From: Amycolatopsis sp. GM8
GTDB taxonomy: Bacteria > Actinomycetota > Actinomycetes > Mycobacteriales > Pseudonocardiaceae
NCBI RefSeq assembly: GCF_021653975.1
Contig: NZ_JAJKFK010000001.1
Coordinates: forward strand, 712,863 to 776,862
DNA length: 64,000 nucleotides
Direction of reading: 5' to 3'
Numbering within the stretch: the stretch's first letter is position 1; the number at the start of each line of letters is the position of its first letter. Made by a program: the position numbers and the translations under genes. This document shows, piece by piece, positions 45,756 to 60,117 of this stretch. Under the pieces are notes generated by a model. It saw only the letters and a list, made by a program, of their open reading frames with translations, searched no databases and was not told the origin of the DNA.

Positions 45756-46520
45756 TCACTTCGTGGCGAGCCGCATCAGCGCCCACATCTGGGCGATCGC
45801 GTCCTCGTCGCCCGACCATTCGACCTCCCGCAGGGGCAGCCGCCCCCACATCCACAGGTACAGGTGCCAGGGTGGCGCCGTGACCAGGCCGTCGGCGCGG
45901 GCAGCCTCTTCCGCCGAGCAGCGCCAGGCTTCGGTGAACCCCGGCCCGGCCCGCGCGATCCAGTGGTGCCCGCCGGTACTCACCCCGACCGAATGCCGCG
46001 CGGTGCCGGACAGCCCGATCATCGAGAGCCGCTGGCCGAACCACACGACGAGCGCCTCGTCGACCCCGTCGATCGCGAAGTCTTCGGCCACCTCGCCGGG
46101 ATACGTTCCGACGGCGTCCTGGACGTCGTACCGGTGAATCGTGGTTTCGTGCGCCATGCGGCGCCGCCAGAACCCGTACGTGTGATCCGCGGGCCACCAG
46201 CTCGCGGCGTACGAATCCGGGGCGTGCACCGAAAATTCGCGCATCAGCGCGACGAGCCCGGTGCGCAGATAGTCCTCAGTGGACTGTCTGGGTGCCGGAT
46301 TCCGCTGCCACTCCTGGGGAGCGTGCCCTTCGGTGAGCCACAGCCGGGCCACCCGGTAACCACCGCCCAGGTGCCGGACGACCTCGCCGACGGTGAACAG
46401 CGGGGAGCTCGGCACCGTGATGTCGGGCGACGCCGTGCGGGCGGCGCCGAGCAGCAGCTCCACCTCGGCCCCGAGCGCGTCCAGGAACCGGCCGGGTTCG
46501 ATCAGGGCTTGCCCGGCCAT
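45756..46520 (-). CDS. maleylpyruvate isomerase-family (mycothiol-dependent type) protein
   Basis: 254 residues. The N-terminal DinB-like four-helix domain supplies candidate metal-binding His residues in EVVRHLGGG and MAHETTIHRYDVQDAVG; the C-terminal half (LYLWMWGRLPLREVEW) is the SCP2-like part of this family. The mycothiol-dependent enzymes here isomerise or transfer thiols, and the substrate is not known. The ATG overlaps the stop of the HEPN gene (TAATG), so the two are coupled and both come under the LexA-box promoter. Confidence 0.85.
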   Translation of the reverse strand: MAGQALIEPGRFLDALGAEVELLLGAARTASPDITVPSSPLFTVGEVVRHLGGGYRVARLWLTEGHAPQEWQRNPAPRQSTEDYLRTGLVALMREFSVHAPDSYAASWWPADHTYGFWRRRMAHETTIHRYDVQDAVGTYPGEVAEDFAIDGVDEALVVWFGQRLSMIGLSGTARHSVGVSTGGHHWIARAGPGFTEAWRCSAEEAARADGLVTAPPWHLYLWMWGRLPLREVEWSGDEDAIAQMWALMRLATK

Positions 46521-47002
46521 TACCGGCGCTGGACTTTCGCACGCGCCGGCCGGGCCGTGTCGCCGCGCGGGTGCACCACGCGGCCGGCGAGCTCCACGAA
46601 CCGGCCGGCCTGCTGGCACAGCTGGGCCGCGGAGCGTTCGGTGATGCGCCGGGTGATCCCGGCCTGCGCGGCCGCGCGGGCGGCCGAGTTCGCGGCGAAG
46701 TACGACGACCATTCGGCCAGCTCGGGGGCCGCCGTCTCGAGCAGCACCCACACGCTGGCCGGACGGGCGCGGCCACGGTGCGGGCGGCCGCGGGCGGCGA
46801 GTACGGCGGCGCCGGCGCGCAGGGCGGCCAGGTAGGAGGTGATGAACTTGGTGACCGGGTCCGCGGCCTGTTCGGCCTCGGCGAGACCGTGCCGGGCTTC
46901 GTTCAGCAGCGACACGGCGGCCGGTGCTACCGGCGGCCGCTCCGGCAGCGGCAGCCGGGGCTGTTCGGGTTCGGTGTGGGACGCGACGGTGGCAACGGAC
47001 AT
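46520..47002 (-). CDS. SAV_6107-type HEPN domain protein, SOS-controlled
   Basis: 160 residues, mostly helical, recognised as the SAV_6107 HEPN family by its pattern (SLLNEARHGLAEAEQAADPVT..., LAALRAGAAVLAAR, ASVWVLLETAAPELAEWSSYFA). HEPN proteins are often ribonucleases or toxin-like; the usual R-x4-6-H motif is not clear here, so activity is uncertain. GGGAGGGG stands just before the ATG at 47002. The promoter carries two LexA boxes. It heads a two-gene operon with the mycothiol-type enzyme. Confidence 0.82.
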   Translation of the reverse strand: MSVATVASHTEPEQPRLPLPERPPVAPAAVSLLNEARHGLAEAEQAADPVTKFITSYLAALRAGAAVLAARGRPHRGRARPASVWVLLETAAPELAEWSSYFAANSAARAAAQAGITRRITERSAAQLCQQAGRFVELAGRVVHPRGDTARPARAKVQRR

Positions 47003-47103
47003 TGCCCCTCCCTGTTCGTGCTGGTGATAGCGGTGCCCGGCGCCGAGACGCTTCCCCCGTCCCCGCCACCGGACACCGCTCCCGGCGAGCGCTACACCGG
47101 ATG

Positions 47104-47157
47104 TCGAACTTGTGTTCGAGCAACTTCCACATTAGCTTCGAACACGTGTTCGTTCAA
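47104..47157 (-). promoter_or_regulatory. SOS promoter of the HEPN operon with two LexA boxes
   Basis: On the minus strand TTGAAC (47157-47152) and TAATGT (47134-47129) are exactly 17 bp apart. LexA box 2, TCGAAC-ACGT-GTTCGT (47138-47153), sits in the spacer; box 1, TCGAAC-TTGT-GTTCGA (47104-47119), is a perfect consensus match just past the expected start of transcription. The rest of 47158-47379 shows no gene. Confidence 0.85.
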
Positions 47158-47370
47158 GCCCCGATCCGGCGAGGTCACACGTCTGGCCACAACACCGAAG
47201 CCGGCGTTTCCATCTCCTGTTCGAGGCCGCCGGCCTTGCCCTCACACGATCGGCTGAGCGCGGGAACCCGACCGCACCCGGAGACGACTTGGAGTACGTC
47301 ACGCCGGGCCGGTCCGCCACACCGGCCCACCGGCCCGGCGTCACTTCCCACGGGTCGTCAGTTGTTGGGC

Positions 47371-47410
47371 AAAAGAAAGGCCTCGTCCCGGAAAAAACTC
47401 GGGACGAGGC
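47371..47410 (-). terminator. intrinsic terminator of the cysteine-rich micropeptide gene
   Basis: GCCTCGTCCCG (47380-47390) and CGGGACGAGGC (47400-47410) form a perfect 11-bp stem with a nine-base loop. On the minus strand it is followed by TTTCTTTT. It lies 25 bp past the micropeptide stop. This is the clearest Rho-independent terminator in the window. Confidence 0.88.
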
Positions 47411-47435
47411 CCCCGCAGCTTCGCTCGGCGGATGC

Positions 47436-47510
47436 CTAGCGACAGCCCGAACAACAACCGCATCCGGGCCCCTTGCATGATCCGCAACTGTTCCCACAGC
47501 AACTCTTCAC
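47436..47510 (-). CDS. 24-residue, eight-cysteine micropeptide
   Basis: A GTG-started frame encodes 24 residues with Cys at 4, 5, 9, 12, 17, 19, 20 and 23; the rest is mainly Gly, Ser, Lys and Arg. It begins MKSCCGNSCG and ends with Arg. AAGGAGGTGATC, a perfect anti-16S match, lies seven bases before the GTG, and a strong terminator follows the TAG. The Cys pairs (CC, CGSC, CGCC) suit binding of Cu(I), Zn or an Fe-S cluster, as in a minimal metallothionein, or a precursor of a modified peptide. No modification enzyme is adjacent. I know no described family for it. Confidence 0.72.
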   Translation of the reverse strand: MKSCCGNSCGSCKGPGCGCCSGCR

Positions 47511-47616
47511 GAGATCACCTCCTTTTCGTGGTGGTGGTGTCCCCGTACTGGTCGCAGACACCGTGCGTCGAGTTCCGGAGACCACCCGAACGTGGGCATT
47601 CGATTACGCTGCACTC

Positions 47617-47874
47617 ATGAAGGTGCGCGAAATCCCGCCGGGCAGTGGTATCAACGGGCGACCGATCCTGGCCGGCCAACCGGGAGTTCGGCACATCGCG
47701 TTCTATCGCGGCGGCTACTGGTGGACGTGGTGTGGCGAACAGGTCCCACGCGACCACCTGTGCCCTTCCGACGCCGAAGTCGAGAGCAGTCCGCCGTACT
47801 TCCACAGGAACTGCGCACCCTGCCAAGCCGAGTACCTGAGACTCGACGGAAAGGCCTGGCCGAAGGCGCGGTAG
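47617..47874 (+). CDS. small Cys/His-rich protein of unknown function
   Basis: 85 residues, opening MKVREIPPGSGINGRP, with YWWTWCGEQVPRDHLCP and later HRNCAPCQAEY. The Cys/His spacing suggests a small zinc-binding fold. It is divergent from the cysteine-rich micropeptide gene. TACGCT (47605-47610) ends six bases before the ATG, consistent with a leaderless mRNA. Not otherwise recognised. Confidence 0.7.
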   Translation: MKVREIPPGSGINGRPILAGQPGVRHIAFYRGGYWWTWCGEQVPRDHLCPSDAEVESSPPYFHRNCAPCQAEYLRLDGKAWPKAR

Positions 47875-58662: not shown

Positions 58663-60117
58663 ATGCGCACCGGTCAGGTCGTCGTGATCGGGGCCGGGCT
58701 CGCCGGCCTGTCCGCGGCGCTGCACCTGCTCGGCGCGGGCCGCGCGGTCACGGTGCTGGAACAGGAAGACCGGCCGGGCGGGCGGGTCGGCGGCCAGGAG
58801 TACGACGGGTACACGGCGGACACGGGCGCGACCGTGCTCACCATGCCGGAGCTGCTCGACGAGGCGCTGGCGGCGGCAGGCCAGCCGAACCCGTTGCGGC
58901 TCGTCCGGCTGGATCCGGCCTACCACGCGCGATTCGCCGACGGCAGCTCGATCGCCGTGCGCACCGACGGCGACGCGATGGAAGCGGAGATCCGCGCGTT
59001 CGCGGGCGCGCGTGAGGCCGACGGCTACCGGAAGCTGCGCCGGTGGCTGACCGAGCTGTACGCGGTCGAGAAGGACCGTTTCCTGGGCGCGAACTTCGAC
59101 TCACCGCTCGATCTCGCGCGGCCGGAGTTGCTGAAACTGCTCGCACTGGGCGGATTCGGGCGGCTCGGCCCGCGGATCGGCCGGTTCCTCGGTGACGAGC
59201 GGTTGCGGCGGTTGTTCTCGTTCCAGGCGCTTTACGCGGGTCTGGACCCGCGGACCGCGCTCGCCGCGTACGGCGTCATCCCGTACATGGACACGATCGC
59301 GGGCGTGTACTACCCGCTCGGCGGCATGGGCCGGGTCGGGCGCGTGCTCGCGGACGCCGCCGAGCGGGCCGGTGCGCGGCTGCGGTTCAAGACCGAAGCC
59401 GCTTGGCTGGAAAGGGTTTCCGGGCGCGTGCGGGCGGTGCGCACGCGCGCGGGCGAGCGGATCGAATGCGACGCGGTCGTGCTGGCGACCGAGCTGACCA
59501 CGGCCTACCGGCTGCTCGGCGCCCGGCCGCGGCGGCCGGTTCCGCTGCGGTTCTCGCCGTCCGCGGTGGTCATGCACGGCCGGACCGGCCGCAGCTGGCC
59601 GGAGCTGGGCCACCACACGATTTTCTTCGGTGCCGCCTGGAAAAGGACGTTCGCGGAGATCATCCGTGAAGGACGGCTGATGTCCGATCCGTCGCTGCTG
59701 GTGACCCGGCCGACCGCGACCGATCCGTCGCTGGCCTCGAGCGGGCAGGTGGTGTCCGTGCTCGCGCCCGCGCCGAACCTGCGCGCCGGCCGGATCGACT
59801 GGTCCCGCGTCGGCCCGGCCTATCGAGAGGAACTGGTGCGGGTACTGGCTTCCCGCGGACTGACCGGGTTCGGCGAGGCGTACCGAGTGGACGAACTGGT
59901 CACGCCACGGGACTGGGCGGACCGCGGGCTGGCCGCCGGCACGCCGTTCTCGCTGGCGCACACCTTCACCCAAACGGGACCATTCCGCCCACGAAACCTG
60001 GTGCGGGGCATGGAAAACGTGGCACTGGCCGGCTGCGGCACGACACCGGGCGTTGGCATCCCACCGGTGCTGATCTCCGGCCGTCTCGCCGCCGCGAGGA
60101 TCACGATGATCACTTAA
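58663..60117 (+). CDS. CrtI-like phytoene/polyene desaturase family oxidoreductase
   Basis: 484 residues. An N-terminal FAD motif, VVIGAGLAGLSAALHLLGAG, and LEQEDRPGGRVGG are followed by the substrate-binding middle and a C-terminal GMENVALAGCGTTPGVGIPPV block typical of the CrtI/HpnE group. It begins directly after the prenyl synthase stop, so the pair is one operon. No phytoene synthase is nearby, so the substrate may be another isoprenoid. Confidence 0.82.
   Translation: MRTGQVVVIGAGLAGLSAALHLLGAGRAVTVLEQEDRPGGRVGGQEYDGYTADTGATVLTMPELLDEALAAAGQPNPLRLVRLDPAYHARFADGSSIAVRTDGDAMEAEIRAFAGAREADGYRKLRRWLTELYAVEKDRFLGANFDSPLDLARPELLKLLALGGFGRLGPRIGRFLGDERLRRLFSFQALYAGLDPRTALAAYGVIPYMDTIAGVYYPLGGMGRVGRVLADAAERAGARLRFKTEAAWLERVSGRVRAVRTRAGERIECDAVVLATELTTAYRLLGARPRRPVPLRFSPSAVVMHGRTGRSWPELGHHTIFFGAAWKRTFAEIIREGRLMSDPSLLVTRPTATDPSLASSGQVVSVLAPAPNLRAGRIDWSRVGPAYREELVRVLASRGLTGFGEAYRVDELVTPRDWADRGLAAGTPFSLAHTFTQTGPFRPRNLVRGMENVALAGCGTTPGVGIPPVLISGRLAAARITMIT

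Follow-up and report, generated by a model that had tools for sequence, protein, structure and literature searches.

Is a reading frame of only 24 codons, eight of which specify cysteine, a gene in its own right, and what might its product do in the cell? The question is raised by a short segment of a 64,000-nucleotide stretch of DNA from Amycolatopsis sp. GM8, which was analyzed as a whole and is referred to as the window.

A Complete Gene of 24 Codons

An initial, sequence-only reading of the locus had described a Shine–Dalgarno (SD) sequence, a GTG start codon, 24 codons including eight for cysteine, and a TAG stop codon, each of which is verified in the sequence (Table 1). The terminator that it placed downstream stands as well, together with its U tract; its stem, given there as 11 bp, is a perfect repeat of 12 bp. 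The peptide has the sequence (V/M)KSCCGNSCGSCKGPGCGCCSGCR: cysteine accounts for 8 of the 24 residues and occurs in CC, CxxC, and CxC motifs, the eight thiols fall within a core of 20 residues, and aromatic residues and histidine are absent.

Table 1. Features of the micropeptide locus (positions within the window).
Feature	Position	Strand	Basis
Micropeptide ORF, 24 codons, eight Cys, group-1 member; start GTG at 47510-47508, stop TAG at 47438-47436	47436..47510	-	sequence, homologues, selection
Shine–Dalgarno sequence, AAAGGAGGTGA	47515..47525	-	sequence
Intrinsic terminator, perfect 12-bp stem (47379-47390/47400-47411), 9-nt loop	47379..47411	-	sequence, folding
U-rich tail of the terminator, TTTCTTTTG	47370..47378	-	sequence
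GGAAC, putative ECF-sigma-type -35 element	47572..47576	-	motif comparison, putative role
GCGACC, putative -10 partner of GGAAC	47550..47555	-	motif comparison, putative role

The longest frame that can be opened mechanically in this register spans 49 aa (GTG at 47585). We favor the 24-aa start because it is served by the SD sequence and because in the copy of A. rhizosphaerae (L038), whose flanks are syntenic, the frame is shut ten codons upstream, which leaves the equivalent GTG as the sole remaining start codon. Such a combination of elements had been judged hard to obtain by chance, and the shuffles agree: The window holds one ORF of 20–32 aa with at least seven cysteines versus none in 60 dinucleotide shuffles, and ORFs of this length with at least six cysteines average 0.03 per dinucleotide shuffle of the window. 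The shuffles without an equivalent, taken together with the homologues described below, rule out a chance ORF.

Across 121 distinct loci of the family, the start codon, chosen in part by its SD sequence, is ATG in 114 cases and GTG in seven; the SD matches span 4–8 nt, and the 8-nt match of the window is the longest observed, found at four of these loci. A downstream hairpin that is more than 5 kcal/mol stronger than in shuffles accompanies 96 of the 121 loci, including the window, where the 42-nt hairpin piece has a folding energy of -29.4 kcal/mol; it is absent from two of the five group-1 loci. The earlier description of a complete transcription unit is backed by the conserved cysteine spacing, the synonymous drift, the SD sequences, and the mostly strong hairpins, and the comparative evidence confirms that the locus is real, an independent gene predicted to encode a 24-residue peptide.

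No Rfam element reaches its gathering threshold in the window. A tRNA-like structure whose anticodon is undetermined was called by ARAGORN at 59318-59407 (+) and is possibly spurious.

Two Cysteine Layouts in One Peptide Family

In the window, the cysteines follow the layout CC-x3-C-x2-C-x4-C-x-CC-x2-C, here called group 1. A protein search finds it in five of 19 genomes of the genus, the window genome among them; two other matches in the latter (E 0.05 and 0.9) were not cysteine-rich and were discarded. At the DNA level, the exact degenerate pattern of this layout occurs in four stretches among 84,980 species genomes, a collection that possibly omits the window's own, and all four belong to Amycolatopsis, namely to A. 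bartoniae, A. rhizosphaerae, A. sacchari, and A. pithecellobii. Conservation of the cysteine pattern in related genomes, which the sequence-only reading had named as a check on its proposal, is thus found in four other species. Within the stretches compared, flanking synteny is confined to the pair of window and A. rhizosphaerae, the other three loci differing; L074 and L075, both of group 1, have about 180 bp in common, ending at the peptide stop.

Matches of the first profile uncovered a second layout, C-x-CC-x2-C-x4-C-x-CC-x2-C, here called group 2. Of 142 loci examined, each of them recruited by profile or pattern, 141 show the cysteine pattern: 126 have the group-2 layout, 12 that of the window, and three lack the first cysteine, the loci being partly redundant, as several repeat one gene and the 12 window-layout loci represent five genes. 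After the last cysteine, no residue follows in 79 of the 141 loci and a single one in 62. The window satisfies the resulting family ending, C-x4-C-G-C-C-x2-C at 0–1 residues from the stop, with CKGPGCGCCSGCR-stop. The N-termini are variable, and some members of about 21 aa are scarcely longer than the cysteine core. Comparison of the predicted peptides shows that the locus belongs to an unnamed eight-cysteine micropeptide family with two cysteine layouts. None of 40 members matches a curated Pfam or NCBIfam model at E 0.1, metallothionein families included, and annotated plasmids and annotated phages gave no family match, with the proviso that short, cysteine-rich queries may be hard to detect. 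In the literature searched, we found no description of the family; six core peptide strings, used as text queries, returned one paper, on an evolved DNA polymerase and artificial bases, whose title suggests that the hit was DNA text.

A combined profile built from 12 rows of both groups, with a cut-off of E 1e-4 and up to 20 candidates scored per genome, detects members in at least 205 of 390 Pseudonocardiaceae genomes, which represent 38 of 46 genera; the window's own member is missed at this threshold. Family-level matches of the first profile at E 0.1 are left uncounted, and several of the weak ones, among those read, resembled GC-rich chance frames. In the class sample, the same 12-row profile (E 1e-3) matched three of 394 genomes: the window's own, one from the same family, and one, L072, which is the sole class-level match outside Pseudonocardiaceae and was discarded for want of the cysteine pattern. 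A 40-row profile, composed mostly of group 2, matched none of 296 genomes of the phylum sample; it recovered 24 of 26 genomes in a positive control and also missed the window genome. Among the genomes sampled, comparison thus shows the predicted family to be near-restricted to Pseudonocardiaceae, an actinobacterial family rich in antibiotic producers. Within Pseudonocardiaceae its distribution is patchy, as three of 34 selected genomes, nearly all of which had lacked an earlier profile match, were positive.

For the genus of the window, protein and profile searches combined yield a member in all 19 genomes: group 2 in 16, group 1 in five, and both in two of those five, A. sacchari and A. bartoniae. 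The three genomes that lack the usual group-2 copy are those of the window, A. pithecellobii, and A. rhizosphaerae, and all three have group 1. At the group-2 site of the window genome, both flanks are found with no group-2 peptide in between; in A. pithecellobii, the flanks enclose a short, rearranged stretch from which the peptide is missing. The A. rhizosphaerae sequence, which covers one flank and roughly the next 780 bp, likewise contains no peptide. In these three genomes, it looks as though the group-1 form has replaced the group-2 form, and we argue that such a form-for-form replacement inside one genus means that the function matters.

Selection on the Peptide

Codon use was compared across 107 distinct group-2 loci, whose cores comprise 99 different DNA sequences and 52 different peptides. 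Cysteine is encoded by TGC or TGT, one glycine is invariant with all four glycine codons in use, a second glycine is retained in 106 loci, and a proline in 94. Mean pN/pS values amount to 0.17/0.65 for group 2, 0.12/0.63 for group 1, and 0.12/0.86 for the syntenic pair of window and A. rhizosphaerae, all with a bias toward conservation, since the loci were chosen by protein profile and the cysteine pattern was demanded when cutting the cores (one of 142 loci failed the looser cysteine pattern). The codon changes indicate selection at the protein level.

Eight-Cysteine Modules in Phage Proteins

In scans of viral contigs, the eight-cysteine module was also encountered within long ORFs on six distinct contigs; of 41 stretches that fit the short seed in the first scan, five were confirmed. 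In L203, the module is part of a Mu-like prophage I / head maturation protease. L204 and L205 are related proteins, of which the latter has a weak head-protease match (E 0.0015) and the former none, and L207 and L209 form another related pair with weak head-protease matches (E 0.0038 and 0.001). L206 is a polyprotein of the portal / RNA-ligase-superfamily type that also matches Mu-F and minor-head proteins, though less strongly. The modules of L206, L207, and L209 display the group-2 cysteine pattern. That of L205 is identical to the window at 14 of 20 positions and to A. bartoniae at 16 of 20, or, counting the non-cysteine places only, at six and eight of 12. A span of 20 residues is too short to tell homology from convergence between the phage and host modules. 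In the phage proteins, the module is possibly a metal knuckle, and its occurrence inside them suits an autonomously folding, metal-bound unit.

Promoter-Like Elements and Neighboring Genes

Groups 1 and 2 differ in their promoter-like element as well as in their genomic site. GGAAC-N16-[AG]CGACC is found in four of the five group-1 upstream regions versus none of 116 others and one of 2420 shuffles; we presume that the GGAAC/GCGACC pair corresponds to ECF consensus elements, and the arrangement may represent an ECF-sigma-like, stress-type promoter. Group 2 is preceded by the element TCnCTCG-N3-RGCGGTRT, as a rule some 83 nt ahead of the start codon. This element is absent from all five group-1 upstream regions, that of the window included. 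Its motif log-likelihood over 82 non-redundant regions is 524 versus 47–51 in three shuffles, and by its GCGGT anchor it is located at 93 of 116 group-2/3 loci, the other 23 being without it. With up to two mismatches allowed in eight genomes, seven contain one site each, always before the peptide, and the window genome contains none. As it is single per genome, the element looks dedicated to the micropeptide gene, and no regulon can be read from it. Known operators were not recognized in the upstream elements of either group.

Two further observations concern the surroundings of the locus in the window. The SAV_6107-type HEPN gene (46520-47002, -) has palindromic GAAC-N4-GTTC-type sites upstream, at 47100-47160, which we take to resemble actinobacterial LexA/SOS boxes, and a divergent 85-aa ORF at 47619-47873 (+) contains several cysteines as well as tryptophan and has no Pfam match at E 0.01.

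Could the peptide act through the genes next to it? A cysteine-responsive leader peptide, an attenuator of the kind seen in mycobacterial polycysteine short ORFs, would be expected to have just this anatomy, a short, cysteine-rich ORF with a terminator behind it. An attenuator lies upstream of the gene it regulates and is co-oriented with it, and the orientation observed contradicts this: The next downstream gene is convergent at 29 of 42 loci and on the same strand at 13, according to a simple GC3-based gene caller that misses some genes (e.g., the L085 hydrolase) and with two near-identical loci in the set. The SAV_6107-type HEPN gene, which is the first same-strand gene after the micropeptide in the window, begins 433 nt away, beyond the terminator. 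Non-cysteine residues are conserved as well, and the neighbors vary among loci. Taken as a whole, the neighborhood lends no support to a leader peptide acting in cis, nor to a biosynthetic cluster, and we regard an attenuator as extremely unlikely. A precursor of a modified or secreted cysteine-rich peptide (RiPP, bacteriocin, or signal) would account for the leader–core shape of the longer members, in which a variable N-terminus precedes a conserved C-terminal core, but several members of 21–24 aa have no leader at all. Moreover, the clustered neighbor ORFs of the 42 loci include no recognized modification, maturation, or export gene, nor a metal transporter, chaperone, or sensor. Group 2 has recurring neighbors, and the one put to Pfam is a convergent gene that often lies opposite the peptide gene and encodes an alpha/beta hydrolase, TAP-like in L085. 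The precursor explanation is accordingly given very little weight.

Function of the Peptide

The sequence-only reading had proposed a minimal metallothionein or a thiol peptide, with which the sequence is compatible; the loci lack a recognized metal-related neighbor that would have supported it. This remains the leading reading: We put at roughly 0.55 the probability that the peptide buffers or scavenges Cu(I) or Zn(II) in the cytosol, in the manner of a minimal metallothionein. The eight thiolates would form two half-modules about a G-[PS]-x turn, which would wrap around a metal–thiolate cluster with one of these metals, and the stress-type (ECF sigma) promoter proposed for the window's group would suit induction by metal or thiol stress. 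We consider a small metal–thiolate peptide the best fit because of the cysteine density, the CC pairs, the lack of aromatic residues and histidine, the G-P turn, the dispensable N-terminus, and the absence of recognized partners. Counting against metal, the group-2 element, with its one site per genome in seven genomes, reveals no metal regulon; among solved structures, metallothioneins included, profiles A2 and A3 found no significant sequence match.

A metal-free disulfide or thiol role would fit the sequence almost as well. The cysteines might cycle between thiol and disulfide in a redox buffer or a small switch without a physiological metal, as the eight cysteines, adjacent CC pairs, and CxxC motifs would permit and as the likeness of the putative group-1 promoter to ECF-type stress promoters would suggest; yet the exact spacing and the glycine and proline between the half-modules are kept, beyond the needs of a bulk thiol buffer, and we deem this role quite unlikely. 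Unlikely, too, is a regulatory role, in which a small peptide stabilized by zinc or an Fe–S center would control a partner protein by binding to it and would not store metal. In its favor, the phage module lies within larger proteins, the setting expected of a knuckle with an interaction or structural role, and the core CxxC-[TS]-G-P-G resembles one CxxCxGxG knuckle of the DnaJ/BSD2 zinc motif: With profile A2, the DnaJ/BSD2 structures were matched at non-significant E values of 0.5 and 1.1, the best PDB match (E 0.5) being the zinc protein BSD2, but these matches vanish with the larger profile A3. Furthermore, no linked partner was recognized, and the minimal members consist of little more than the cysteine core.

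Building on the metallothionein-like reading, a broader proposal is tentative and, in our estimate, rather doubtful: The 20 residues may constitute a reusable eight-cysteine metal–thiolate mini-domain, which would exist as a stand-alone gene with a dedicated promoter element in every genome of the window's genus and in many other Pseudonocardiaceae, could disappear from its usual site and give way to a relative with other spacing and a different promoter, and would be embedded in proteins of the capsid-assembly type in several phages. If so, few genetically encoded metal-cluster proteins of bacteria would be smaller, and the module would link host metal handling to phage capsid assembly. A module shared with phage proteins is an unexpected and testable connection.

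Comparison with Known Systems

SmtA-type metallothioneins are longer than the micropeptide, and their cysteine spacing is different. They nevertheless share with it, by the description in an excerpt of PMC7558416, that they are small bacterial cysteine-rich metal binders. The same excerpt describes MymT, a mycobacterial copper metallothionein of 4.9 kDa encoded by a small cysteine-rich, non-annotated ORF (PMC7558416), which resembles the micropeptide in being actinobacterial, small, and cysteine-rich, as compared by description; on this account, MymT sets a precedent for an actinobacterial copper thionein residing in an unannotated small ORF. The polycysteine leaderless short ORFs of mycobacteria, as presented in the available part of the source (Canestrari 2020; PMC9094748), are likewise short, cysteine-rich, and actinobacterial; unlike them, the micropeptide gene is led by an SD sequence, possesses its own terminator, and is followed by a gene that is not co-oriented at 29 of the 42 loci.

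Closest in size are the fungal copper thioneins of Neurospora crassa and Agaricus bisporus (MT family 8), for which the accessible text of PMC4755600 gives 26 aa, seven cysteines, and the pattern X2-CXC-X5-CXC-X3-CXC-X2-C-X3. As there described, they share with the micropeptide a length of about 25 residues, a cysteine content of about one third, and the lack of any larger domain. The window peptide differs in having eight cysteines with CC pairs; it does not fit the family-8 pattern and comes from another kingdom, and homology is not indicated. If it binds metal, the micropeptide, for which Pfam and NCBIfam contain no family model, would be to bacteria what the smallest copper thioneins are to fungi, and its minimal size would suit it well to testing the lower limit of residues needed for a genetically encoded metal–thiolate cluster.
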